A stretch of 35,234 nucleotides of DNA from a virus. The notes under the pieces were generated by a model. That model saw nothing but the letters and a program-made list of their open reading frames with translations. It was not told the DNA's origin and searched no databases. Numbering within the stretch: the stretch's first letter is position 1; every line of letters starts with the position of its first letter. Positions 2,509 to 28,125 of the stretch are shown in pieces. The stretch spans positions 1-35,234 of the IMG/VR virus record IMGVR_UViG_3300024346_000244; one strand, given 5' to 3'. The translations under genes and the position numbers were made by a program.

Positions 2509-4462
2509 GTGGGCAGAAACTAAATTTCGTTTACCGGCTGAGGGATCGGATAAGCCCGGTCCTTATGATCTTTATTACGCGCCGTACTTGTACGGGATAT
2601 TCGCGGCGCTGGATGATCCAGAAGTTAAAGAGGTTGTGACTCAGAAAGCGGCTCAGATCGGATGGACATTCGCTCTCGTTGCGTATTTAGGAAAAATAAT
2701 CGACACAATGCCGTCACCGGTTGTTGTGATGTTTCCCAAAGAAGACGCGGCCCGCGAATTCAACGATGAAAAATTTGAACCGTCGGTGCTGAGTACGCCT
2801 GCATTAAGCCGAAAAATGAACGTCAACAAGACGCGGAGTAAAGAAAACCGCGCATTGTTTAAGAAATTCCCTGGGGGGTTTCTAAAGTTTGTTGGTTCTA
2901 AATCGATTAGCTCGGTTAAATCGACACCGGCGCGCATCGTTATCGTTGAAGAGCCTGACGATTCCGTAGGCAACTTGAAGGAGCAAGGCAACTCAATTGC
3001 GTTGCTCTGGGAGCGTACGAAGCGCATTCGCAACTCTAAGCGCGTGTTGGGTGGTACGCCGTCGGTCGATGGTCTAAGCAAAGTGCAAGAGCACATGCGA
3101 GGCAGTGATAGGCGAGTGTTGCCGATCATTTGCAATGAATGCCATCAAAGCCATGTTTTGAATTGGGATAACGTAACGTGGCTTGAATCTGACGACGGTT
3201 CAGAGCACGAGATGTTCGGTAAAGCGTTACCGGATACGGCCGTTTATGTATGCCCAGAGTGTGGGTCGCCGTGGTCCGACTACCAACGCAAAGAGAACAT
3301 ACGCCACACCGTTTATACTGCATTAAAAAATGGTGATGAAAAATGCGGATGGGTGGCGACTGCTGAATTTCACGGCAGTGCAGGATTTGAAGAGTTGGGC
3401 GAGTTATACAGTTGCTTGCCCGGTGCCGGTGTTGTTGATCTTGTCCGCGACTATCTTAAAGCGGAATACAAAGCAGCGCAGGGTGACGAAACCGACCGCA
3501 TAGTGTTCGTCAATTCAAAGCTTGGCAGGCCATACGCATACGCCGACGACCAAGCTGATGCAGAAACGCTACGCGAAAAAGCCAAAGACTACCCAGAATT
3601 ACGATGTCCGCGTGGTGGCCTCATGGTTACCGTCGGTATCGACATTCAGCACGACCGTGTGGCCATCATCATCCGTGCATGGGGCCGTGGTGAGGAAAGC
3701 TGGTTGCTGTTTTGGGGGGAGATATCGGCCTCAGTATCAACAACCGACAAAAATGACCCCGTGTGGGATGAATTAGATTACCGCGTATTTGGAGCGATAG
3801 ACCACGAACTGGGTGGAAAAATCTACGCAACGGCAATCAGTATCGACAGTTCCGACGGCAACACTAACGATGCCGTCTATGCGTGGGTCAGAACCCGAAC
3901 AAAGCGCCACTCTCAAGTGCTGATAATGCCGATCAAGGGCTCAAGCTCACAGCAAGATCCTGAAATATTTACAACGCCCAGTTCAAAACCCATTGATCAT
4001 GCAAACGCCAAAAAGCGCACAAAAGCCGACAAGCACGGCCTGAAAGTCTATTTAGTGGGCACGAACAAAGCTAAAGATTACCTAGCTGCACACATGAAAA
4101 TGATAGGTTCTGGTCCCGGTCGTCATCACACTTACAAGGACGTGCGGGCTGACTACTACGACCAAGTAACAGGCGAAGTAAAAGCGCCTCACCGAAGCAT
4201 TCGCAACCGCAAAATCTGGCAACAAAAAGCAGGCCGTGCGGTTGAAGCATGGGATTGCGAAGTGTACGCCTTACATGCGGCTAGAGCGCGGCGGGTGCAT
4301 TTGCTCAAGCCAGCGCAGTGGGACGCTCTAGAGCAAAAACTAACGCAAGTTGATCTCTTTGCGGAGGCTGAAACGGATGAAATCAAAGCCGAAGAACAGC
4401 CCAAAAAACAACGTACGCGGGTAAAACGCCCGTCACGCGGCAACAAATTTACCGGAGTCTAA
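2387..4462 (+). CDS. Terminase large subunit, lambda gpA (GpA) family
   Basis: A 691-residue packaging motor ATPase and nuclease. Residues around 40-50 (AEWAETKFRLP) match the conserved N-terminal motif of gpA. A Walker-A-like stretch QKAAQIGWT lies at 86-94 and a Walker-B-like VIVEEPDD near 185-192. Two CxxC pairs (ICNEC, VCPEC) suggest a zinc site. The nuclease half has VGIDIQHDR, ISIDSSDG and AWDCEVYALHAA with acidic residues. The ATG at 2387 gives a 122-nt overlap with terS; ATG 2495 would drop residues that appear conserved upstream of the AEWA motif, so I prefer 2387, without a strong ribosome site. Confidence 0.88.
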   Translation: MFLDQSELPSDTRAKLGQNLRSVSQIWEATLVPTPPMATAEWAETKFRLPAEGSDKPGPYDLYYAPYLYGIFAALDDPEVKEVVTQKAAQIGWTFALVAYLGKIIDTMPSPVVVMFPKEDAAREFNDEKFEPSVLSTPALSRKMNVNKTRSKENRALFKKFPGGFLKFVGSKSISSVKSTPARIVIVEEPDDSVGNLKEQGNSIALLWERTKRIRNSKRVLGGTPSVDGLSKVQEHMRGSDRRVLPIICNECHQSHVLNWDNVTWLESDDGSEHEMFGKALPDTAVYVCPECGSPWSDYQRKENIRHTVYTALKNGDEKCGWVATAEFHGSAGFEELGELYSCLPGAGVVDLVRDYLKAEYKAAQGDETDRIVFVNSKLGRPYAYADDQADAETLREKAKDYPELRCPRGGLMVTVGIDIQHDRVAIIIRAWGRGEESWLLFWGEISASVSTTDKNDPVWDELDYRVFGAIDHELGGKIYATAISIDSSDGNTNDAVYAWVRTRTKRHSQVLIMPIKGSSSQQDPEIFTTPSSKPIDHANAKKRTKADKHGLKVYLVGTNKAKDYLAAHMKMIGSGPGRHHTYKDVRADYYDQVTGEVKAPHRSIRNRKIWQQKAGRAVEAWDCEVYALHAARARRVHLLKPAQWDALEQKLTQVDLFAEAETDEIKAEEQPKKQRTRVKRPSRGNKFTGV

Positions 4463-4984
4463 ATGGAACCAACCGTCATTACTGCAGGCACTAGCGCCAG
4501 CTGGACCCGTGCAGACGATTACGCGTATGGCCTGTGGGATTTCAGCTATATCCTAACCGGCCCTGAGCGAATCACTATCGCCAGCGAATCTGACTCTGGA
4601 ACCGTAACCGCGTCGGTAACCGCGCAGGATACTGCAGAATGGACGGCAGGCAAATATCAATGGATTCTCGTTCGTGAAAGCGGCGCAGACTCAATACTGG
4701 TCGGCACGGGCTATCTAACCGTAAATGCCAGCCCATTTATTGAAAATACCGTAATTGATCACCGCTCGCATGCTGAAAAAATGCTAATCGCCATTGAAGC
4801 GCGTCTAGAAAACCGCGCGGCAAGCGACTACGAACAATACAGCATCGAAGGCCGAAGCCTAGCGCGTATTCCATTCGCAGAACTCAACAAATGGCGCATC
4901 CACTACCGTAACGAAGTGGCGCGCTTGCAGCGGCGTGAAAGCGGTAAAAAGTCACCGCGTCGAATTATCTACCGGATGCCGTAA
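4463..4984 (+). CDS. Head-tail joining protein, gpW-like C-terminus with beta-sandwich N-terminus
   Basis: A 173-residue protein starting directly after the terminase stop and ending directly before the portal start. Residues 1-90 look like an Ig-like beta-sandwich (SASWTRADDYAYGLWDFSY, alternating hydrophobic strands). Residues 100-173 are helical and basic: AEKMLIAIEARLENRA, YSIEGRSLARIPFAELNKWR, VARLQRRESGKK. The second part resembles gpW head-completion proteins, which sit on the portal and plug the head. Lambda gpW is only 68 residues, so the extra N-terminal domain is a fusion. Position between terL and portal is the lambda W position. Confidence 0.6.
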   Translation: MEPTVITAGTSASWTRADDYAYGLWDFSYILTGPERITIASESDSGTVTASVTAQDTAEWTAGKYQWILVRESGADSILVGTGYLTVNASPFIENTVIDHRSHAEKMLIAIEARLENRAASDYEQYSIEGRSLARIPFAELNKWRIHYRNEVARLQRRESGKKSPRRIIYRMP

Positions 4985-6493
4985 ATGAATATTTTTGGAA
5001 TGAACTTCGGTAAATCCGCTGCCGCACCAGAAGAAAAGCGTTCAGCTGGTCGGCACCCAAACACCGCCCAACACATACGCTACGCAGCGGCAAAGCTAAA
5101 AGAGCACAGTGCTGAGCGATTTATTGGTGGCGCTCAAAGCGTTGATGAAAAACTACGGCGCGACCTAGAGCGCGTGCGGTCGGCCAGCCGCAACGCTGGC
5201 GACGATATCGGCTACGTTCGCCGCTATCTAAGCATGGTCCAAACGCACATCGTCGGTGAGGACGGTCTACGCCTGCAAGCCAAAGTGCGCGATGCCTCTG
5301 GTGGCCTTAATAAAGAAATCAACAAGATTTTAGAAGGCGAGTTTGCCGAATGGGGCGAGCTTGGAATGTGCGAACTCAGTGGCCGTATGAGCTGGATAGG
5401 CGCGCAAGAACTATCAGCAAAAACTACCGCCCAAGATGGCGACATGCTCATTCGCTATCACGTCGATAAATCCAACCGCTACGGGTTTTGTATAGAGCTG
5501 ATACCGTCCGACTTTTTAGACGTAAATCTCAACAACAACCTAAAAAACGGCAACCGTATACGCATGGGGGTAGAGCTAAACAGCCGTAACCAGCACGTTG
5601 CCTACCATATTTTAACTAGCCACCCTGGTGATAATAGTTGGGTGAGCAATGGTCGGCGTTACGAGCGGGTGCCAGCCGAAGAAATGGACCTGCTGTATCA
5701 CCTTTGGGAACCTGGACAAAATCGCGGCTTACCTTGGGCTCATGCCAGCTTATTAGAAATGCACCAGATTGGCGGCTACCGCGAAGGCCAGCTAGCGGCA
5801 GCGCGTATTGGCGCAGCAAACATGGTGTTTTACGAACGTGACCCAGAGCAAGAGCCAAACGATGATTTCGACGATGAAGGCGACTTCATCACCGAACTTG
5901 AGGCGGGCCAAAGTAGTGTGGTGCCCGAAGGCTACAAGATGAACCACACCAACTTTGCACCGCCAGCCAGCATGGGCGACTTTCAAAAAGCCGCCCTTCG
6001 TGGCAGCGCTAGCGGCATGGATGTTAATTACAACGTGCTGGGTAACGATTATGAAGGCGTTAGCTTCAGCAGCCTACGCCAAGCCGTGCTTGAAGATCGC
6101 GAAACATGGAAGCGCAAGCAGCGCTGGTTGATAGAATCCCTCGCTAGCAAAACCTATAAGCGCTGGTTAAAAATGGCATTGCTTAAAAATGCGTTGCCCG
6201 GTTTAAAAGCCTCCGACTTGCAACAGCTATCTAAGCATACGTTCCAAGGTCGTCGCTGGCAGTGGGTAGACCCGCTAAAAGACGAACAGGCGACCGGTGC
6301 TGCAATGGCCAACTACACCATTAACCCAATGCGGACGTTGCAAGAAAAAGGCATAGACCTCGATGAAATGGCCGAAGGATGGACGCAGTACCTCGACACC
6401 ATGCAAGACATTATGAACCGCGCCAACGAGATCAAGGCCAAGGCCAAAGCGCCCTTGCCAGACACCGATAACACAGATCAAAACACAAAATAA
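4985..6493 (+). CDS. Portal protein, lambda gpB family
   Basis: A 502-residue protein (lambda gpB has 533) forming the dodecameric ring through which DNA enters and leaves the capsid. Recognisable parts are the N-terminal basic region, RSASRNAGDDIGYVRRYLSM near residue 67, QDGDMLIRYH near 150, LWEPGQNRGLPWAHASL near 243 and GVSFSSLRQAVLEDRETWKRK near 350, all typical of the lambda-type (Phage_portal_2) family. The C-terminal tail is charged and disordered. Its stop codon is part of the stem of an intrinsic terminator. Confidence 0.9.
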   Translation: MNIFGMNFGKSAAAPEEKRSAGRHPNTAQHIRYAAAKLKEHSAERFIGGAQSVDEKLRRDLERVRSASRNAGDDIGYVRRYLSMVQTHIVGEDGLRLQAKVRDASGGLNKEINKILEGEFAEWGELGMCELSGRMSWIGAQELSAKTTAQDGDMLIRYHVDKSNRYGFCIELIPSDFLDVNLNNNLKNGNRIRMGVELNSRNQHVAYHILTSHPGDNSWVSNGRRYERVPAEEMDLLYHLWEPGQNRGLPWAHASLLEMHQIGGYREGQLAAARIGAANMVFYERDPEQEPNDDFDDEGDFITELEAGQSSVVPEGYKMNHTNFAPPASMGDFQKAALRGSASGMDVNYNVLGNDYEGVSFSSLRQAVLEDRETWKRKQRWLIESLASKTYKRWLKMALLKNALPGLKASDLQQLSKHTFQGRRWQWVDPLKDEQATGAAMANYTINPMRTLQEKGIDLDEMAEGWTQYLDTMQDIMNRANEIKAKAKAPLPDTDNTDQNTK

Positions 6494-6518
6494 CCCAGCC
6501 CACGAGCTGGGTTTTTTT
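6492..6518 (+). terminator. Intrinsic terminator between portal and capsid genes
   Basis: AACCCAGC (6492-6499) and GCTGGGTT (6506-6513) form an 8-bp stem with a 6-nt loop, followed by T residues. It lies inside the head operon, so capsid and tail expression would depend on read-through. Confidence 0.75.
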
Positions 6519-6530
6519 ATGGAGCAAACA

Positions 6531-8372
6531 ATGGCCAATTTAAGCGCATTAGTGCAAAGCATCCGCGATAACGGCGGTATGAAACCTGAGTTTCGAGCTG
6601 CCGACCTGGTGTCTGTAGACCGCGAAACCCGCACCGCCACCTTTAGTTTTAGTTCTGAGTATGAAGTACAGCGTTGGTGGGGTATGGAAATCCTTGACCA
6701 CAAGCCCGAATCCGTCCGCCTAGAACGCATTAATAGCGGTGGCGCACTGCTTTGGATGCATGACCGCTACGACCAGCGTGGAAAAGTCGTTGAAGCGCGT
6801 CTAGAAGGTGATCGCGGCATTTGCACTGTTCAGTTTAGCCGCAACCCCAAAGGGGAAGAATTGCTTAATGACGTAGAGGATCGCGTCATTACCCAAGTAT
6901 CCGTTGGCTACAACATCCACGAATTGGTGTTGGAGCGTAAAGAAGGTGATAACGAGTTTTACCGTGTCACCGACTGGGAACCAACAGAGATTTCATTCGT
7001 TTCCATTGCGGCTGACCCCACGGTCGGTGTCGGTCGCTCGCAGGAAAATCAAACCTACCGACCAGTAAACTTAAAAGGGGTGTCCGCCATGGATCCAGTA
7101 GTAGATGTAGTTGAAGAAGAACGCAGCGCGCCAGCGCCAGCAAAACCAACGCCAGCCGCTCGCGCCAGTGCGCCAGCCCAGCCAGCACAACCCGCAACTG
7201 TCGATCATGCGCGAGAAATCGCCAAAATTGGCGAGCAATACGGCGCAACCGAATTAGCCATGCGCTCAATCGGCGAAGGCCTAACCGTCGATCAGTTTAA
7301 AGACAAACTGTTAGACACTCATAAAGAACGTGCTGCCCAGCCAGATGCGGCTAGCACGATGGGTGACATTGGCCTGACTGACAAAGAACTGCGCCAGTAC
7401 AGCTTAATGAATGTTGTTCGCGGGCTAGCCAGCGGCAACATGAAAAAATACGCAGGCTTTGAGCAAGAAGTATCAGAAGCCATGGCAGAGCGTATGAGCA
7501 AAGACCCTAACGGCTTATTCGTACCATACGAAGTGCTTGGTGCGGGTATGCGTACCCAGTCAGTGGGTACGGCTGCAAAAGGGGGTAACTTAGTTGCTAC
7601 TGAGTTGCACTCGGAAATGTTCATCGAAGCCCTGCGCCAGCGCTCCGTCATGGGCATGATGGGCGTACGCATGATGTCTGGTCTGGTCGGTAACATCGAC
7701 ATTCCAAAGCAAGCGGGTACCGCGACGTTCTACTGGCTCAACGAAGATCAAGACGTTACTGATTCTGACGTAGATTTCGGTCTGGTCAGCATGACCCCGC
7801 GCACTGTTGCTGGTTCTGTGCCCATTACTCGGCGTTTAATGCTGCAAACTAGCATTTCAATCGAACAGTTAATTCGTGACGACTTAATGCGCGGTTTGGC
7901 TGATGCGATCGACAACGATGTGTTGGCAACTATCAAAGCAACCTCGGGCATTGGCGCGGTGACCATTGGTGGTACTGCTGGCGCACCAACGCCAACTTGG
8001 GCGAAGGTTTGCGAACTGGAAACCGATGTTGCAGAAGCCAACGCGGCAGGCCTAGGCATGGGCTACATCTTCCGTCCAAGCATGAATCAGGTGTTAAAAA
8101 CCACCGAGCGTTTTGCTAACACTGGCAAAACACTGATGAATGACGACGGCACTATGAACGGCTACCGTACCGAATCGACTACGCAAATGACCGCTGGTCA
8201 AATTCTGTTTGGTCGCTTCGATCAAGCGATGGTTGGCTTGTGGGGTGCGGTCGATTTGGTGGTTGATAAATCTACCAAAGCGGCCTCTGGCGGTACTGTG
8301 TTACGCATCTTCCAAGATTGCGACAGCGTTGTTCGTCACCCTGGTGCGTTCTCGTTGGGCGCAACGGCGTAA
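6531..8372 (+). CDS. Fused prohead protease and HK97-fold major capsid protein
   Basis: A 613-residue polyprotein. The ATG at 6531 is preferred over 6519 because GGAG (6521-6524) sits 6 nt before it. Residues 1-175 are an S78-type prohead protease: WMHDRYDQRGKV holds the probable catalytic His and ITQVSVGYNI the probable Ser. A Pro/Ala-rich linker (about residues 196-225, APAPAKPTPAARASAPAQ) follows, then a scaffold-like delta region, then the capsid domain from about residue 335 (KGGNLVATELHSEMFIEALR). The protease would cut itself and the delta region off during maturation. A strong internal start at 7089 may give separate capsid precursor. Lambda keeps these functions on two genes. Confidence 0.88.
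   Translation: MANLSALVQSIRDNGGMKPEFRAADLVSVDRETRTATFSFSSEYEVQRWWGMEILDHKPESVRLERINSGGALLWMHDRYDQRGKVVEARLEGDRGICTVQFSRNPKGEELLNDVEDRVITQVSVGYNIHELVLERKEGDNEFYRVTDWEPTEISFVSIAADPTVGVGRSQENQTYRPVNLKGVSAMDPVVDVVEEERSAPAPAKPTPAARASAPAQPAQPATVDHAREIAKIGEQYGATELAMRSIGEGLTVDQFKDKLLDTHKERAAQPDAASTMGDIGLTDKELRQYSLMNVVRGLASGNMKKYAGFEQEVSEAMAERMSKDPNGLFVPYEVLGAGMRTQSVGTAAKGGNLVATELHSEMFIEALRQRSVMGMMGVRMMSGLVGNIDIPKQAGTATFYWLNEDQDVTDSDVDFGLVSMTPRTVAGSVPITRRLMLQTSISIEQLIRDDLMRGLADAIDNDVLATIKATSGIGAVTIGGTAGAPTPTWAKVCELETDVAEANAAGLGMGYIFRPSMNQVLKTTERFANTGKTLMNDDGTMNGYRTESTTQMTAGQILFGRFDQAMVGLWGAVDLVVDKSTKAASGGTVLRIFQDCDSVVRHPGAFSLGATA
7073..7091 (+). promoter_or_regulatory. Internal ribosome binding site and start for capsid precursor
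   Basis: AAAAGGGG at 7073-7080 lies 8 nt before an in-frame ATG at 7089 within the protease-capsid gene, at the junction between the protease and the Pro/Ala linker. A product from here would be 427 residues: linker, delta region and capsid domain without the protease. That would let the phage make more capsid subunits than protease. Confidence 0.5.
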
Positions 8373-11119: not shown

Positions 11120-11419
11120 GCATTTCGCCTAGCGATGATCTGCGGTGAATGGAATGTTGATAAATTACTGCATCAAATGCCCGCGCATTTAGCAGTAGAG
11201 TGGCAAACATTCCTCGCCCTAGAGCCTCACGGGGCATTAGCAGATGACCTGCGTTCTGCTCAGGTTTGCGCGCTGCTGGCCAACATCAACGCCCCCAAAG
11301 GGCGAAGTTACAAAATCCAAGACTTTGTCGTAAACACCTACATTCCGCCGAAAAAACAAACGGCAGAAGAGATGTTTGCACTACTCGAAGGCATGTTCCC
11401 AAATGGCAAAAAACACTGA
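11093..11419 (+). CDS. gpT-like domain, made as GT fusion by -1 frameshift
   Basis: The conserved gpT pattern (QQHRRWAFRLAMICGEW, then AVEWQTFLALEPHGALADDLRSAQ, ANINAPKGRSYKIQDF) begins upstream of the first ATG of this frame (11135). The domain is therefore most likely reached by frameshift from the G-like gene and not by independent initiation. The fusion would be about 255 residues from the start at 10653, or about 228 from 10734. In lambda, GT links the tape measure to tube subunits. The frame overlaps the tape measure start. Confidence 0.7.
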   Translation, partial: LVGQQHRRWAFRLAMICGEWNVDKLLHQMPAHLAVEWQTFLALEPHGALADDLRSAQVCALLANINAPKGRSYKIQDFVVNTYIPPKKQTAEEMFALLEGMFPNGKKH

Positions 11420-21868: not shown

Positions 21869-22183
21869 TCAAGGATGAGATATTAAGGGGTCTTTGCAGG
21901 CTGGGTATCCCTCTGGGACTTTGCCGCGTTTGTTCCTTTTGGTAACGCAGTATTGATGGAATTTACTTTTTCTTAGCCCGCACTGCGCAGCCATGCTTTT
22001 AATGAGGTCGGGGCCAAATGGTGCCTTCGGGCAATCAACAGTCACTTTTGTAAATTTCCCGTTGACGTATCCAACCCATTGCTCATGAGAGGTGCCGTTT
22101 TGGGGTCTTGGTTCTAGCCCGAGCCATCTAAGTGTGTCTTTGACTTGTCTGCAATCTAGTGGTGGTAGTTTTCGACCTAACAA
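21869..22183 (-). CDS. HicA-family toxin (putative mRNA interferase)
   Basis: A 104-residue protein of the HicA/YcfA type, a small dsRBD-like fold that cleaves mRNA using a histidine. KLPPLDCRQVKDTLRWLGLEPRPQNGTSHEQWVG has the order of the family, with catalytic histidine H33 in TSHEQW, then the strand KFTKVTVDCPKAPF and the closing helix IKSMAAQCGLRKSKFHQY. It starts at TTG with a strong AAGGAGG 8 nt upstream. It follows the HicB-like gene on the same strand by 27 nt. It could stabilise the prophage or act in abortive defence. Confidence 0.7.
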   Translation of the reverse strand: MLGRKLPPLDCRQVKDTLRWLGLEPRPQNGTSHEQWVGYVNGKFTKVTVDCPKAPFGPDLIKSMAAQCGLRKSKFHQYCVTKRNKRGKVPEGYPACKDPLISHP

Positions 22184-22210
22184 CTATTAGCCCTCCTTGG
22201 CTGGTGTGCT

Positions 22211-22558
22211 TTATGCGCATTCTCTAGGATGCATTTTTTCAGAGAATACACTTAGATACTCGCTGCGGGTTTTGGCTTTGTTCTTGAGTGCGATTGAGAA
22301 TGAAAGTGCCTTCACGATGACTCTTATGATGTGGTACTCAATCATCACTGACATTGGTGACTTTCTATTCATTAGCTCGTCATAGTGTTCGCGATCAATG
22401 GTTGCTGCTTCGTGTATGTAGGTGCAAATTTGTGCATGAAGCTTTGTGGTTGCATCATGCAAGGAGTCTCCTTGCGCTGACAGACATAAGTCTACGCACG
22501 TAGCAACATACTGATCTCCACTTTTTTTCCCGTAGCAACGAAGATAAGTTTTAGCCAT
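22211..22558 (-). CDS. HicB-like antitoxin
   Basis: A 115-residue protein. Residues 1-50 (CYGKKSGDQYVATCVDLCLSAQGDSLHDATTKLHAQI) match the HicB partial RNase H-like fold ('wvA.c.dl.l.aqGdtl.eA...l'), which blocks HicA. The usual C-terminal helix-turn-helix is replaced by a hydrophobic stretch (MIEYHIIRVIVKALSFSIAL). Antitoxin precedes toxin, the less common order for HicAB. AAAGGAG lies before the ATG. A palindrome at 22664-22685 in the promoter region may be its operator, though the missing DNA-binding domain makes this uncertain. Confidence 0.65.
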   Translation of the reverse strand: MAKTYLRCYGKKSGDQYVATCVDLCLSAQGDSLHDATTKLHAQICTYIHEAATIDREHYDELMNRKSPMSVMIEYHIIRVIVKALSFSIALKNKAKTRSEYLSVFSEKMHPRECA

Positions 22559-22950: not shown

Positions 22951-23171
22951 CGGAATATACAGTGGTTTTTAGGGATAAAAATGTGGGTTTTGAGGCTGTT
23001 ATTTTTACGAAAAAAACAGGTAAATTATTGTTTTTATTACATTTAGTTCTTGATTGTGATTCCTGTTGTCGCGGGTTCGATCCCCGTCGGCCACCCCACT
23101 TATACAAGCCTTTCAGTGTAAGCGTTCGCTAACATGTAGGCGTTTCGGAATATCTTATTCCGAATATACAG
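22951..23171. repeat. attP arm-type repeats
   Basis: GAATATACAG occurs at 22953-22962 and again at 23162-23171, about 100 nt left and 65 nt right of the tRNA-like core. The second copy partly overlaps a palindrome, CGGAATA (23146-23152) and TATTCCG (23156-23162), three bases apart. Paired repeats on both sides of the core are the usual layout of arm sites bound by lambda-type integrases. Confidence 0.5.
23052..23098 (+). other. attP: attP core: 3' part of a tRNA-His gene
   Basis: The 47 nt match the 3' part of a tRNA-His: anticodon loop with GTG (TTGTGAT), variable loop, T arm (GCGGG TTCGATC CCCGT), acceptor strand CGGCCAC, discriminator C and CCA. A C73 discriminator is specific to tRNA-His. 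There is no 5' half upstream, so this is not a working tRNA gene. It is the sequence a phage carries to rebuild the host tRNA gene on integration. The integrase gene is about 870 nt to the right. Confidence 0.85.
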
Positions 23172-23208: not shown

Positions 23209-23260
23209 AAATAACATATTCACAGCGCGGGACCTTCGGCCCGCGTGCTCAGCGTTATGC
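23209..23260 (-). other. attC-like site c
   Basis: On the minus strand GCATAAC contains the TAA stop of the 90-residue gene, and GTTATTT closes the site 52 nt later. The inner arms CGCGGG and CCCGCG pair, with one extrahelical base followed by a further CC/GG pair around a 3-nt loop. ATAAC/GTTAT of the outer boxes pair perfectly. It ends the array before attP. A plain hairpin terminator is less likely, because no T-run directly follows the stem. Confidence 0.5.
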
Positions 23261-23527
23261 GGATTTACGCTTTCTATAACGCAAGTCCAGCTCCTCAGTT
23301 TTAAATTCACATATAGCGCCGTTAGGGTGTTTAAGTTCATAGCACCATTCCCGACCTACAAAACCTCTTGGTATTGCCCGTAAAACCTCACATTTTGCAT
23401 TTAGCCAGTAATTAAGACTTGCAGGCATGTTCACATCAATTTTTGATATGACCCGAACGGTCTGACCGGCTTCAAACACAGGATTCTCTTTTGGATTAGC
23501 TAGAATCGCTTTTAAAACATCTTCCAT
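23255..23527 (-). CDS. Hypothetical cassette-like protein, 90 residues
   Basis: The gene sits between attC-like sites b and c. Its start lies 15 nt after the GTTATGC box and its TAA stop is inside the next box. The protein opens with a helix (EDVLKAILANP) and continues as a beta-rich, SH3/KOW-like domain (AGQTVRVISKIDVNM, CEVLRAIPRGFVGREWCYELKHPNG), ending basic (LRYRKRKSA). No family recognised. Its size and isolation fit an integron cassette product. The nature of its promoter is unknown; it may ride on the leftward early transcript. Confidence 0.6.
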   Translation of the reverse strand: MEDVLKAILANPKENPVFEAGQTVRVISKIDVNMPASLNYWLNAKCEVLRAIPRGFVGREWCYELKHPNGAICEFKTEELDLRYRKRKSA

Positions 23528-23542
23528 TCTTCAATACCCTAC

Positions 23543-23600
23543 GCATAACAATGCGTTGTAAATGATTCACTGGCGTTCACAGTTAAACGCGGGGTTAGTG
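23543..23600 (-). other. attC-like site b (best example)
   Basis: On the minus strand CACTAAC carries the TAA stop of the 92-residue gene, and GTTATGC, a common integron R' variant, closes the site after 58 nt. On the plus strand GCGTT-G-TAA pairs with TTAAACGC, an 8-bp arm with a single extrahelical G. Extrahelical bases at this place are the hallmark by which attC sites are read as folded single strands. Confidence 0.6.
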
Positions 23601-23873
23601 CGCTAAAGCGGCTTTCCCAGCCTTGATAGCCTCAACCGCCTCTGGGTCACCCTCGGTAATGTTCCAGCTTTCCAGTTCATTTGTAACTGCGCGCAGTGCT
23701 TCCTCTAATCTTGAGACGCGCTGCGATAGGTACATGATTCGGTCGCGGCCCATAGTGCATACCGCCTCGTGGTCGAGCTGGCCCCGCATCAGCATTCGTA
23801 CCTTGTGAGCCACGTCAATATCGCTGTACTGCGCGCCGCACATTGTTTCTTTTTTAACTTCGTCGCCTGTCAT
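23595..23873 (-). CDS. Hypothetical cassette-like coiled-coil protein, 92 residues
   Basis: I take the ATG at 23873, which has GGAG 9 nt upstream. The same frame runs on to 24353, but only as a shadow of the integrase gene. The product is largely helical: a charged N-terminus, then CTMGRDRIMYLSQRVSRLEEALRAVTN with heptad spacing, then EAVEAIKAGKAALAH. No family recognised. It lies between attC-like sites a and b, with its stop inside box b, downstream of the integrase. Confidence 0.55.
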   Translation of the reverse strand: MTGDEVKKETMCGAQYSDIDVAHKVRMLMRGQLDHEAVCTMGRDRIMYLSQRVSRLEEALRAVTNELESWNITEGDPEAVEAIKAGKAALAH

Positions 23874-23896
23874 AATCTTCTCCGTAGTTGGTCGCA

Positions 23897-23962
23897 CACT
23901 AACAACACGCAGCACCATCGCTGCGCTGGACGCCCGTGGCGCCGGTGTGCTCGGGGTTATTC
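23897..23962 (-). other. attC-like site a
   Basis: On the minus strand GAATAAC begins 3 nt after the integrase stop TGA, and GTTAGTG ends the site after 66 nt, 23 nt before the next ATG. AGCACC (plus strand) pairs with GG-T-GTGCT, leaving one extrahelical T, and TAAC/GTTA of the outer boxes pair. This is the only site of the five in which the stop codon is not inside the first box. Confidence 0.5.
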
Positions 23963-23965
23963 TCT

Positions 23966-25090
23966 TCACCGCGTCGCGGTGCCTTTGTTGAGTTTTAAAT
24001 TGTACAGATCGGCCATCCGCTTGGTTTTGTGCCCTAGGTCTTTGCCGTCTGTACCCGCTTTTTTCTTCATGTCGTGCAATGTTACGTCTGTGATGCCGGT
24101 GGCGGTTTTCACGTTGGTGAGTGCTTTTTGTAGTGCTGATTTGCTGATTCGGTCGCCGCGGGTGTTGCGTATGATGGGGCGCTCGCGTATCGGTTCGATC
24201 TTTCCTGCTGGATATAAGCTGATCGCGGTATCGATGGCGGTTTGCAATCGATCGCTTATTTCGATGAGCTCGCCTTTTGAGCCTTTGCTGCGGATGATGC
24301 GCAGGTATTCGATGCCATCTTCGATGATTATGTCTTCGAGGTTGAGTTTGCATACTTCGTTACGGCGCAGGCCGCACAGATAGGCGATTTCTATAAATCC
24401 AAAAAACCACGGGGTTGTGCTGTTAAGTGCGGCTTCTAGCATTTGTAGATACTGTTCGTCGGTGATGTATACCTGGCGAGCGGTCTCTTGGAATTTTATC
24501 AGGCCATCGGCTGGGTTTTGTTCCATGCCTGCGAGATATTGGCGCAGCCACTTGAAAAACGCTTGTAAGCAGCTTAGGTGGCGATTGGCGGTGGTTGGCT
24601 TGGCTTTGCCCTGCAGGATGGTACCGTTCGACTGTGTGACGGTTTGCGGTGTGTTCCAATAGTCCATGTAGCGACGTATGTGGGTTGGTTTGACGTTGGT
24701 GGGGGTCATGGCTCCGAATACATGCCGAATGCCGTTGTGTGTGGCCTTGCTGGCTGGGTTGTTTGGGTTAACGGCCACCTCGATGTAGCGGCGGTAGTCT
24801 TCTTGAGTGAGCCGGTTTAGGCTGATGAATTTGTCAGACACCATGAATTTGTTGAGCCAGTAGTTTACGTCTTTAGCCGGGCGTGCTTCGACGACGGCGC
24901 GGTCGTAGGCGTCCATAACGCTGCGGCGTACTTCTACCGGCTCTATGACGTTGCCGTTGTCGTCGCGTTGCAGTTTGATGAGCGTTTGGCATTTGCCGCC
25001 TTTTGGGCGATATTCGTAAGACGATTTGCCGCGATATACGCGCGGCGGTAGCCAGTTGTCTGCAGTGGTTTTTCTTTTTCTGGGTGTCAT
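23966..25090 (-). CDS. int: Phage tyrosine recombinase (integrase)
   Basis: A 374-residue integrase that would recombine the tRNA-His attP core with the host attB. The N-terminal part has an arm-binding-like region (RGKSSYEYRPKGGKC), then a core-binding domain with SLNRLTQEDYRRYIEVAV and NRHLSCLQAFFKWLRQY. The catalytic residues visible are R242 (CGLRRNEV), K269/K272 (RSKGSKGE), H339 with K342 (HDMKKK, where most families have HxxR), H354 (LGHKTKRM) and Y363 (MADLYNL). HxxK is common in integrases accompanied by DUF4224 proteins, as here. It lies between attC-like sites e and a. Confidence 0.9.
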   Translation of the reverse strand: MTPRKRKTTADNWLPPRVYRGKSSYEYRPKGGKCQTLIKLQRDDNGNVIEPVEVRRSVMDAYDRAVVEARPAKDVNYWLNKFMVSDKFISLNRLTQEDYRRYIEVAVNPNNPASKATHNGIRHVFGAMTPTNVKPTHIRRYMDYWNTPQTVTQSNGTILQGKAKPTTANRHLSCLQAFFKWLRQYLAGMEQNPADGLIKFQETARQVYITDEQYLQMLEAALNSTTPWFFGFIEIAYLCGLRRNEVCKLNLEDIIIEDGIEYLRIIRSKGSKGELIEISDRLQTAIDTAISLYPAGKIEPIRERPIIRNTRGDRISKSALQKALTNVKTATGITDVTLHDMKKKAGTDGKDLGHKTKRMADLYNLKLNKGTATR

Positions 25091-25099
25091 TGTTTTGCC

Positions 25100-25330
25100 C
25101 TAAGCGAGGTTGAAGCCTTCGTCATCTTGCAGTTCTGATAATTGATCAGCAAGTTTTGCTGATTCGATACCTACCATTGAATCGATTAGGCTGCATGGCA
25201 CTAGCGGTGATCCGTCGGAGGCAGGAATGAATGCAATATGCATGTTATTGAGCACAGCAATGCGGGCGGCTTTTTGTCGCTTGCCGGTGAGCGCTGTCAT
25301 GTCTGCGTCTGTTAGAAAATAACTGGCCAT
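25100..25330 (-). CDS. DUF4224-family protein, integrase partner
   Basis: A 76-residue protein. Start chosen at 25330 (AGG in AGGTAACGAT), 8 nt after the stop of the upstream gene. YFLTDADMTALTGKRQKAARIAVLNNMHIAFIPASDGSPLVP matches the DUF4224 pattern (FLT..El..LTG...ka.Qi..L....I.F....G.P.V). Such genes sit directly before phage integrases and are thought to be excisionase-like or regulatory, without firm proof. It ends 9 nt before the integrase start. Confidence 0.75.
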   Translation of the reverse strand: MASYFLTDADMTALTGKRQKAARIAVLNNMHIAFIPASDGSPLVPCSLIDSMVGIESAKLADQLSELQDDEGFNLA

Positions 25331-25338
25331 ATCGTTAC

Positions 25339-25851
25339 CTAAGCTGCTTCTAGCTCTTCTTGCAGGTGTCTTATTAGCGTGGCATTGGCGGTATGATCGC
25401 GGTCCCACGGTTTGTGTAGTTCGAATAATTTAATGATATCGCGCTGGGTTTTTTCGAGATCGACGGTATGGTCCGGCACTAAGAAGAACCCGCTGCTGCA
25501 TACTTGATTTAGGTTTTGTTTATCGACAAAGCTCCAATGCGTGTCATCGATGATTTTATTTATCTCGGTGCGCGTGAGTGGTGCTTTTATTGCATCGATT
25601 AGCGTTTTTGTACCTTGCTCAAAGCCGGTATCGATAAAAACTAATATCATAATTGCCCACGTATTTTTACGATCCAGTATCTCGTTGGCTTGGGCAATGC
25701 TGATGTGATGCTTTGGGTTTCCGACTTCGGAGCCGAGCGAACCCATCATTGTGCCGTGCATGTAAAACGTGGTGCGTCTTACGTCATTTCGGTGACGTTG
25801 CGCGTTGCGGGCGGCGCAGGCATTTCGCGATTTTTTTTTGACTTTTTTCAT
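25339..25851 (-). CDS. Hypothetical protein, 170 residues
   Basis: The first gene after attC-like site e (25 nt from its GTTATTG box). The N-terminus is very basic (KKVKKKSRNACAARNAQRHRNDVRR). It is followed by a compact alpha/beta region (AIMILVFIDTGFEQGTKTLIDAIKAPLTRTEINKIIDDTHWSFV) and a helical C-terminus with DHTANATLIRHLQEELEAA. No family recognised. It is joined tightly to the DUF4224 and integrase genes. It could be a DNA-binding accessory factor because of its basic start, but nothing specific supports that. Confidence 0.6.
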   Translation of the reverse strand: MKKVKKKSRNACAARNAQRHRNDVRRTTFYMHGTMMGSLGSEVGNPKHHISIAQANEILDRKNTWAIMILVFIDTGFEQGTKTLIDAIKAPLTRTEINKIIDDTHWSFVDKQNLNQVCSSGFFLVPDHTVDLEKTQRDIIKLFELHKPWDRDHTANATLIRHLQEELEAA

Positions 25852-25876
25852 ATCTAAATCTCGGTTTAATTTAATT

Positions 25877-25934
25877 CAATAACACCTCGTTACGCGTCGA
25901 TCTCGTACCTCGACGCGCGAACTCTTTGTTATAG
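25877..25934 (-). other. attC-like site e
   Basis: On the minus strand CTATAAC includes the TAA stop of the ASCH gene, and GTTATTG closes the site after 58 nt. The outer ATAACA/TGTTAT boxes pair perfectly. Inside, GTT/AAC pairs are followed by an A versus CG internal loop and then an 8-bp stem, CGCGTCGA with TCGACGCG. This box-spacer-arm arrangement is that of short attC sites. Confidence 0.55.
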
Positions 25935-26276
25935 GTACTCAAATTCGATCCTGTTGACTACGCTCATTGGGTTTGTGTCACCTGTCTTGTCATGGCTGAT
26001 GAGAAAACCAACAAACTGATCCGGTGTCATTTCTGGAAAACCCTCACGAATACAGTCAGCTTGCGTTATGTCGCAAAGACACTCATCTCGCACAGAAATG
26101 ACTCTGATCAATCCGAGTTTTTTTATTTTTTCACCTTTCTTTAAGCCCATCGCTTTTTCGACGCCGCAGATAACATCGCCGGGCTTGAGAAACGACCAGC
26201 CAAATCGCCGTGTTACTGTTTTAGTCTTTTCTTTAAACTGATTCGTAGTTAGAGCAAAACTCATATTTCTCGGCAT
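25929..26276 (-). CDS. ASCH-domain protein
   Basis: A 115-residue protein of the ASCH fold, a PUA-like beta-barrel that binds RNA or modified bases. The typical features are all there: SFALTTNQFKEKTKTVTRRFGW, LKPGDVICGVEKAMGLKKGEKIKKLG, IRVISVRDECL, ITQADCIREGFPEMTPDQFVGFL. In phages these proteins often lie near DNA methyltransferase genes, as here, which suggests recognition of modified DNA or RNA. The gene forms a single cassette-like unit between attC-like sites d and e; its ATG is 8 nt after the GTTATAG box. Confidence 0.75.
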   Translation of the reverse strand: MPRNMSFALTTNQFKEKTKTVTRRFGWSFLKPGDVICGVEKAMGLKKGEKIKKLGLIRVISVRDECLCDITQADCIREGFPEMTPDQFVGFLISHDKTGDTNPMSVVNRIEFEYL

Positions 26277-26284
26277 ATTCGTAC

Positions 26285-26344
26285 CTATAACAATTCACTG
26301 TTGTCTTATTTCGCTCCGCTCAAAAGCAAAGCTCCGGGTTATCC
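26285..26344 (-). other. attC-like site d
   Basis: On the minus strand GGATAAC contains the TAA stop of the upstream gene, and GTTATAG closes the site after 60 nt, 8 nt before the ASCH start. The inner arms TTT-C-GCT and AGCAAA (plus strand) pair with one extrahelical base, but the spacers on the two sides are unequal (about 17 and 9 nt). This is the weakest fold of the five. Confidence 0.4.
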
Positions 26345-26569
26345 CTTGTAATCTATTAGGCTGCGACCATGATCTGGACAACTGCATGTTTCTTTTTTAC
26401 CGCCTTCCCAGCACTGTAGCGGGCGTGGCTCTGTATCTTCTGCGCCAATGTCACCGCTTAAAATATCGGTGGCGCTTTGGATCGCTTGGTATGCCCAGAT
26501 AAACGGGGATGCGATTAGTGCAACAATTGCGATGATAATTACGGTTATTAGTACGGTTGTCGGGCTCAT
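26339..26569 (-). CDS. Small single-pass membrane protein
   Basis: A 76-residue protein. Residues 5-30 (TVLITVIIIAIVALIASPFIWAYQAI) form one transmembrane helix; the rest is soluble and has three cysteines and a histidine (QCWEGGKKETCSCPDHG), a possible metal site. It starts by ATGA overlap with the methyltransferase stop, so it is co-translated with it. Function unknown. Its stop lies in attC-like site d. Confidence 0.6.
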   Translation of the reverse strand: MSPTTVLITVIIIAIVALIASPFIWAYQAIQSATDILSGDIGAEDTEPRPLQCWEGGKKETCSCPDHGRSLIDYKG

Positions 26570-28125
26570 GCTGCTCTCCGGTTTTTCTGTTGTTGTTTTG
26601 TATTGGCTTTGGCGATGGCGGCTATTAAGCCTGGTGGCACTGAATTGCCTACCATTCGCACTTGAGCGGTTTTTGTGAGTGGTTTACCGTCGGCGGTGCG
26701 GTCGTGGATGTATCCGTCTGGAAAGCCTTGGGCTTTATATAATTCGTGCGGGGCCAGCATGCGCATGCCTATGTCGGTAATTTGATAGGTTTCGCCATTA
26801 ATTTTTACTAGCACTAAACCAAAGCGGTCGTTGGTGGTGATGGTGTGCAGTGGTTGGTTGATGTCGCAGCCGTCTTTGTCGTTGCCGTAATATTTAATTA
26901 GAAATGCAGATACTAGGGCGTGATGATCTGTTGTTGTTATCGTGTCGAGTGGTGCGCGCATGTCGATACCTGCGCCTGTGTAATTTCCACCGTAGTGCTT
27001 AACTAGGAAAGCGGTTACCAGTGCAAAATGCCCGCCTTTAACGCCTGCGCATATTGTGCGCAGTGGTTCATCTAGGCGCATGTTGCGTTGGTTGCTGGCG
27101 TTGGCGTGTTCGGTGATGAATGGCGCCATTGTGGCAACGACTAATGCTGACTTTCCGTTGCCTTGGGTCATGATGGTGCCTAGCGGTTCTGCAACGCTAT
27201 TGCCGCCGCCTGTGCCGAATTGACGATCTATGAATGCGTATTTATTTTTTTCTAAAATAAAAGGATCGTTCGATTCTAATACAAATTTACGCAGGCCTTT
27301 GGCGATGCGTGCCATGGTATTTTCTGCCAATGGCTTTGGGCGATTAAATATAGAGCGGCATGGTATGGACCAGTCGATACAGTCGGCTGCGGTTTTGTAA
27401 GGCAATAAGCCTTTGCTGTGAGTGGGTTCTGGCCATTGCACTTGTTGTCCGTCGCAGCGGGCGACCATAAAAAAGCGTTTACGGGTGGTGGGTATTCCGA
27501 AGTCGCAGGCGCGCAATTCTTTGGAATCGACGTTGTAGCCAAGGCCGGTAAATACTGGCGATATATCGAAGCCTAACGGCATGAATTCGCGCAATTCTTT
27601 TACCGCTGGGTGTGTTTTTTTAATGCCGGTGGTAAGCATTAATATAAATGCCTCGAAGGTTTCACCAGCGCGTTCTTTGATCGGTTGGCCTTCGGTGTTG
27701 AGCGGGCCCCATGTTTTAAATTCTTCGACGTTTTCTAAACTAATTTTTTCGGGGCGTTTGAGTATTGCCCATTTAATGACGATCCAAGCGAGGCCGCGAA
27801 TTTCCTTCTTTTTGGGTTTTCCGCCACGGGCTTTGCTGTGGTGTGTGCAGTCGGGCGAAAAATGCGCCCATTCGACGGGCAGGCCGTGAGTGGCTTTTAG
27901 TGGGTCTACGTCCCATACCGATTCACAATAATGCTGTGTGTCTGGGTGGTTCACCTGGTGCATTGAAATCGCTTCGGCATTGTGATTGATTGCGATATCA
28001 ACCGGACGTTTGAATGCCATTTCTAGCCCCATTGATGCACCGCCGCCGCCAGCGAAATTATCGACGATTAGGGCGTTGGGTAGGTGTAGGCCCATCTGGC
28101 CTTGGGTGGCGTTGTAGATGTGCAT
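26566..28125 (-). CDS. C5-cytosine DNA methyltransferase with repeat-containing recognition region
   Basis: A 519-residue enzyme that would transfer methyl from SAM to cytosine C5. Motif I is VDNFAGGGGAS (21-31), motif IV SPDCTHHS (90-97, Cys93 nucleophile; SPDC replaces the usual PPC), motif VI ENV (131-133), motif VIII TTRKRFFMV (213-221), motif X VGNSVPP (492-498). Between VIII and X, residues about 298-438 contain four tandem repeats of some 33-37 residues, each ending in a 'EPLxTI...LV'-like pattern. This probably protects phage DNA from host restriction. No partner endonuclease is visible. Its start codon touches the kinase stop. Confidence 0.88.
   Translation of the reverse strand: MHIYNATQGQMGLHLPNALIVDNFAGGGGASMGLEMAFKRPVDIAINHNAEAISMHQVNHPDTQHYCESVWDVDPLKATHGLPVEWAHFSPDCTHHSKARGGKPKKKEIRGLAWIVIKWAILKRPEKISLENVEEFKTWGPLNTEGQPIKERAGETFEAFILMLTTGIKKTHPAVKELREFMPLGFDISPVFTGLGYNVDSKELRACDFGIPTTRKRFFMVARCDGQQVQWPEPTHSKGLLPYKTAADCIDWSIPCRSIFNRPKPLAENTMARIAKGLRKFVLESNDPFILEKNKYAFIDRQFGTGGGNSVAEPLGTIMTQGNGKSALVVATMAPFITEHANASNQRNMRLDEPLRTICAGVKGGHFALVTAFLVKHYGGNYTGAGIDMRAPLDTITTTDHHALVSAFLIKYYGNDKDGCDINQPLHTITTNDRFGLVLVKINGETYQITDIGMRMLAPHELYKAQGFPDGYIHDRTADGKPLTKTAQVRMVGNSVPPGLIAAIAKANTKQQQKNRRAA

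Follow-up and report, generated by a model that had tools for sequence, protein, structure and literature searches.

Gene Organization of the Leftward Operon

The IMG/VR virus record IMGVR_UViG_3300024346_000244, analyzed here over its full 35,234 bases (the window), belongs to a temperate phage whose structural genes run rightward and whose early operon runs leftward. Read leftward, the operon passes through the genes of a C5 methyltransferase (MTase) and a 76-aa protein, a gap, the gene of an ASCH-like 115-aa protein, a gap, the gene of a 170-aa protein (orf170), an excisionase-like gene (xis) and a tyrosine integrase gene (int), followed by a gap, a 92-aa gene, a gap, a 90-aa gene, a last gap, and the 3' part of a tRNA-His gene, which forms attP (Table 1). 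The phage has two docks and not, as the sequence-only reading had it, one array: dock A extends from the MTase gene to orf170–xis–int, and dock B from int to attP.

The product of int was ruled out as an integron integrase or cassette recombinase, as it scored 21 bits with TIGR02249 against a cut-off of 265. Tyrosine recombinases usually carry an HxxR motif; in the integrase family encoded at 23966–25090 the corresponding position is occupied by HDMK, which is conserved in all four aligned relatives. Between the tail genes and attP (21869–22558), a gene of a HicA-like toxin (a weak match) adjoins that of a possible HicB partner.

Table 1. Positions of the operon genes, attC-like sites, and attP in the window, and of the integron integrase genes of two other phage contigs (R1, attC covariance model).
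Feature	Position	Strand	Remarks
attP core, 3' part of tRNA-His gene, end of dock B	23052..23099	.	matches tRNA-His in phage records; in L006 a complete tRNA-His, with more tRNA genes after it, occupies this position
attC-like site 1, last of dock B, adjoins attP	23209..23260	+	R1 13.1 bits; body 98% identical over 49 bp to last dock A site of L006 (5147-5195)
Cassette gene, 90 aa, orphan	23255..23527	-	ends complementary over 8 bases
attC-like site 2	23543..23600	+	R1 22.6 bits; extrahelical base placed as in the training attCs
Cassette gene, 92 aa	23595..23873	-	ends complementary over 7 bases
attC-like site 3, directly 3' of int stop codon, dock B start	23897..23962	+	R1 25.3 bits, best match of the window
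Phage tyrosine integrase (int), backbone	23966..25090	-	Phage_integrase 7.5e-14; phrog_1 6.8e-35
Excisionase-like protein (xis), backbone	25100..25330	-	DUF4224; phrog_8896 excisionase
170-aa backbone protein (orf170)	25339..25851	-	phrog_5434; kept in L006 and L017
attC-like site 4, last of dock A	25877..25934	-	R1 21.3 bits (opposite strand 9.8); canonical attC hairpin fold, z -3.4; 98% identical to L018 11550-11608
Cassette gene, 115 aa, ASCH-like by eye only	25929..26276	-	ends complementary over 11 bases
attC-like site 5	26285..26344	+	R1 only 9.3 bits; 95% identical to L018 10886-10946, itself 16.7 bits
76-aa gene between MTase gene and site 5	26339..26569	-	different in each relative
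C5 cytosine DNA methyltransferase (MTase)	26566..28125	-	PF00145 2.2e-21; upstream border of dock A
L039 intI	5977-6951		array 4459-5924; cassette genes run towards intI
L065 intI	5959-6927		array 3876-5913; cassette genes run towards intI

The Gaps of the Operon Are attC-Type Sites

The coordinates agreed with the earlier description of five gaps of 52–66 bp, all within 3.2 kb and together making up about 1% of the window. As had also been described, xxxTAAC and GTTAxxx boxes bound all five of them; the 90-aa, 92-aa, and ASCH-like genes have their stop codons within the TAAC box. AAC and GTT triplets were found at the outer boxes in 5/5 sites. The outer positions of the 7-base boxes deviate from strict RYYYAAC/GTTRRRY (they are of the GCATAAC/GTTATGC type), but so do those of intI-linked Shewanella and Vibrio attCs used to train our model; the strict form is not an absolute requirement. 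An L''/L' stem with an extrahelical base and spacers of 4–6 bases was in register in sites 2, 3, and 4, partly so in site 1, and weak in site 5.

The gaps were scanned with an attC covariance model (R1) built from 17 attCs, 13 or so of them from the integron of Shewanella phage M16-3 and the rest from the integron of Vibrio phage p16, a dfr cassette on a P1-type phage, and phage TJE1. Its structure included the extrahelical base and had the loops masked. Held-out class 1 cassette sites were found by R1 on the correct strand. With filters off and both strands searched, the four top matches in the window coincided with four of the five gaps (Table 1) and the next best match, elsewhere, reached 11.9 bits, scores that should be read with a small, mostly Shewanella training set and rough E-values in mind. 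In two unrelated control phage stretches (100 kb) the best matches did not exceed 15.0 bits. R1 bore out four of the gaps; site 5 ranked 11th in the window. By its own score, site 5 is weak; it would qualify as an attC through its identity to the L018 attC.

The expectation that the gaps would fold, as single-stranded DNA, better than shuffled sequences held clearly for site 4; the other four gave z values of -0.5 to -1.8. Similarly, a home-made structural scan, too weak as proof for single sites, singled out site 4 genome-wide and gave comparable scores elsewhere for the other sites. As the single-strand fold is convincing for site 4 only, the case for attC does not rest on folding. An Rfam search at gathering and permissive thresholds returned nothing relevant to the gaps. 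A CALIN comprises at least two neighboring attC sites with no intI nearby, and the window has five such sites; a complete integron comprises intI and attI, and the record has no intI. The evidence supports the view that, in a temperate phage lacking an integron integrase, cassettes are delimited by sites of attC type.

Cassette Ends Are Complementary to Each Other

In an integron cassette, the 5' end (TTRRRY...) and the R'' box at the 3' end derive from one recombination junction and are complementary. We compared the ends of 21 phage cassettes drawn from the window and from L006, L008, L009, L017, and L018. The two ends of the same cassette were complementary over a mean of 8.5 bases, as compared with 5.2 for ends of different cassettes, and none of 20,000 permutations reached the observed sum; the boundaries were those defined by the sites, so this result concerns the pairing of ends and not the existence of boxes. 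The same comparison in a bona fide Shewanella integron gave 8.7 versus 4.8. Among unrelated GTTA/TAAC pairs in the window, at least 7 complementary bases occurred in 2.5% and at least 8 in 0.6%. In this respect, the elements of the window behave as integron cassettes do, with R'' complementary to the 5' end of the same cassette.

The 90-aa cassette protein had no family match and no relatives among phages or plasmids. The search of phage and plasmid proteins likewise returned no relatives of the 92-aa protein; one that is 48% identical over 91 aa came from the intI loci described below, where it is encoded beside a truncated phage-borne intI in L043. The ASCH-like 115-aa protein has scattered relatives in phages and plasmids (44–63% identical), and its ASCH name turned out to be unsupported at Pfam or NCBIfam thresholds. 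Among defence families, the one match was SspD-like and concerned a PAPS-reductase-like protein of L006. The product of one L006 cassette (3221–3541) belongs to Phage_gp49_66 (PF13876), a family of phage proteins, which hints at a pool of cassettes carried by phages. In L018, an apparent cassette without a protein-coding gene (11178–11298) has 14-base complementary ends and an internal inverted repeat.

Related Phages Differ in Cassettes at the Docks

Searches with the integrase identified L006 (92% identical integrase), L007/L017 (90%), L008 (63%), and L009 (65%), and L018 was found through an attC pattern. Between the window, L006, and L007/L017, the DNA of the backbone is 81–96% identical, whereas the genes at docks A and B differ, the only exception being a 112-aa cassette after int that is common to L006 and L017. 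The DNA of L008 matches that of L009 at 99.7% identity through int as far as TGATAACCC; unrelated stretches of 592 and 253 bases follow, and from the last attC onward the two are again 91% identical. L006 and L017, unrelated before the box that follows the last attC of dock A, are 95.7% identical from this box onward. The attC bodies at 26285 and 25877 recur in relatives with 95–98% identity beside unrelated genes, and across lineages the variable parts share attC bodies, not genes. The same genes with unrelated spacers, a pattern that the sequence-only reading had named as speaking against cassettes, were not encountered: the relatives have related attC bodies and different genes. As judged from these alignments, close relatives keep the MTase–xis–int backbone and differ in the cassettes at the two docks, with breakpoints at the boxes.

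Further sites of this kind were seen outside the two docks. A third pair of attC-like sites, or dock, lies near the SSB gene in the L008 phage (L037 1976–2280, G003:C1:23975–24280). In another IMG/VR phage contig (L030 6343–6633), two attC-like sites of the same body family flank a 51-aa gene. The latter was the real further case among 13 matches of the attC pattern AGCTTTGCT...AGCGA in viral contigs, most of which were rejected as attC by their context. An inverted repeat, GTGGTTNGTTCYATTTTGGAACRTACCAC, is common to the array borders (L017 7898–7930, L008 7780–7830, and L009 1044–1090), and is possibly a border site.

Most Sites Are Inverted Relative to the Genes

It had been claimed that all sites of the array point the same way. 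Four of them do lie along the plus strand, opposite to the genes, but site 4 scores best in the direction of the genes. In the relatives, R1 likewise placed all sites opposite to the genes, except for the family of site 4. R1 can be trusted on orientation because 45/45 of its matches in intI-bearing contigs were on the strand expected relative to intI. The breakpoints between L008 and L009, at ATAA|C, fit inverted sites; at the ends of the docks, sites 1 and 4 agree poorly with the general orientation or do not agree with it. As a rule, though not as an absolute requirement, a cassette gene runs along its attC. Here, 4/5 sites in the window and most in the relatives are inverted. So the cassette genes at these sites are reversed relative to attC and run with the phage operon, and the cassettes of the window are a variant rather than canonical ones.

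Integron Integrases Are Encoded by Other Phages of the Same Layout

The claim that the window lacks an integron integrase proved correct: neither the window nor the five relatives, six metagenomic and possibly incomplete records, had a match to TIGR02249 above the cut-off. A search of viral contigs for IntI gave 80 loci. Two of them, the temperate phages L039 and L065, combine a related layout with an IntI of their own (419 and 405 bits with TIGR02249, cut-off 265). In L039, the genes of a repressor, a methyltransferase, four small proteins, IntI, an excisionase, and an integrase stand in a row, and the contig has a distant GpA-type terminase. The L065 genes include those of a dNMP kinase, a methyltransferase with 72% identity to the L017 enzyme, small proteins, IntI, a serine integrase, and tail proteins. 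In both L039 and L065, all three attC matches run opposite to the genes. The Vibrio-type contigs L064, L067, and L080, by contrast, have canonical genes only, as far as genes could be assigned; this test is blurred in G+C-rich contigs by open frames on both strands. L008 and L039 have one pair of attCs with 77% identity over 48 bp.

L043 has two intI copies with similar flanks (2659–3495 and 6001–6951), the first of them truncated, and the relative of the 92-aa protein is encoded just upstream of the first. Genome contigs searched with the integrase alignment and an attC pattern gave no matches, and thus yielded neither a host genome nor a chromosomal integron carrying these attCs.

A Model of Cassette Exchange and Its Alternatives

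We consider it probable (about 0.78) that the phage carries integron gene cassettes at two docks, and that an IntI supplied in trans inserts, removes, and replaces them, with the phage operon presumably expressing their genes. According to this model, each cassette would consist of a small gene and an attC site lodged in the leftward early operon, at dock A or B. IntI would come from an integron of the host or from another, IntI-encoding phage, and would join attC sites at G|TT of one box, leading to the insertion, removal, or replacement of a cassette. A plausible occasion, suggested previously, would be the SOS response, which induces a prophage together with many IntI genes (PMC9892861). 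Because the majority of the attCs point against the genes, the latter are read in the direction of the phage operon, and their expression would presumably depend on a promoter of this operon rather than on an integron promoter.

Several observations count against this explanation: the weakness of site 5 by R1, the folding of 4/5 sites, which is no better than that of shuffles, the poor or missing fit of sites 1 and 4 to the general orientation, and the negative search of genome contigs for a host or an integron with these attCs. In the main rival explanation, homologous recombination would take place between attC bodies that are nearly identical; the spacers, derived from attC, would now be mere conserved linkers, between which genes are swapped by homologous or phage-type recombination with no integrase involved. 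Bodies of 49–61 bp are indeed 95–98% identical between phages beside unrelated genes, the records have no IntI, and the same body closes both dock A of L006 and dock B of the window. This would account for the swaps, but not for the complementarity of ends, which is specific to each cassette, nor for the breakpoints, as identity starts and stops at the boxes and not within the bodies (L008/L009, L006/L017). Related layouts also do carry IntI. We regard the linker explanation as unlikely.

Far less probable is that the spacers are intrinsic terminators or members of a repeat family resembling attC. They are imperfect inverted repeats in intergenic positions, and sites 1–3 and 5 do not outfold their shuffles; however, they match the attC model in register, extrahelical base included, the cassette ends are complementary, and even the permissive Rfam search was without a match. 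A chance resemblance to attC, to which the loose structural scan might point, as every site but one had its equals elsewhere in the window, deserves next to no weight: it has already been refuted by the permutation test and the relatives with their related attC bodies, to which the R1 ranking adds.

Comparison with Known Systems

Among phages, Qi et al. (2023; PMC9892861) found 17 clusters of attC sites as well as a few integrons, and IntI1 recombined 5/6 tested phage attCs with attI1. The window is another phage attC cluster of this kind. Like the phage CALINs of that study (clusters of attC sites lacking integron-integrases; PMC9892861), it has attC sites without intI and a methyltransferase gene in or near the array, and the attCs of TJE1 are in the same register. 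Unlike in those cases, a temperate lineage could be compared here across relatives, with cassettes replaced at fixed docks beside xis–int and attP. The cassettes of TJE1 and PH101 were described in one direction (PMC9892861), whereas most attCs here are inverted relative to the genes. The integrons of Vibrio phage Va_90-11-286_p16 and Shewanella phage M16-3 (PMC9892861) share attC and cassettes with the window, and intI with L039 and L065. However, p16 captured a part of a host integron, with genes in the canonical direction (PMC9892861), and the genes discussed here run with the phage operon towards int, or towards intI in L039 and L065.

Sedentary chromosomal integrons, such as that of Vibrio cholerae, also have small, unrelated genes of unknown function that are followed by nearly identical attC bodies, and complementary ends (PMC11023631), but the phage has no intI, genes inverted relative to attC, and two small arrays. 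Variable small genes amid conserved modules are likewise a feature of lambdoid phage mosaicism (morons, linker sequences); here, however, the borders are attC boxes and the cassette ends are complementary.

In the open-access literature, we found no report of inverted cassettes in phages or of phage lineages with cassette turnover. New with respect to Qi et al. (2023) are the temperate lineage with replaceable cassettes at fixed docks, the mostly inverted attCs, and the same layout with its own IntI in L039 and L065. It is conceivable, at somewhat less than even odds, that these phages form a distinct class of phage integrons: several temperate lineages with early-operon arrays beside xis–int, inverted genes driven by a phage promoter, a cassette pool of phage type, and in some members (L039, L065) their own IntI, in which case the window phage would be an intI-less member served in trans.

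Previously, attC clusters in phages were known as scattered cases. With the cassette turnover observed here, phages look like active users of the integron system and not like accidental carriers, suggesting a part for viruses in the gene trade run by integrons. The inverted direction of the genes uncouples recombination from integron-driven expression, and provides a testable signature. Through phages of the same layout with their own IntI, cassettes may be made, transferred between hosts, and passed on to chromosomal integrons, a route that bears on the question of the origin of cassettes.
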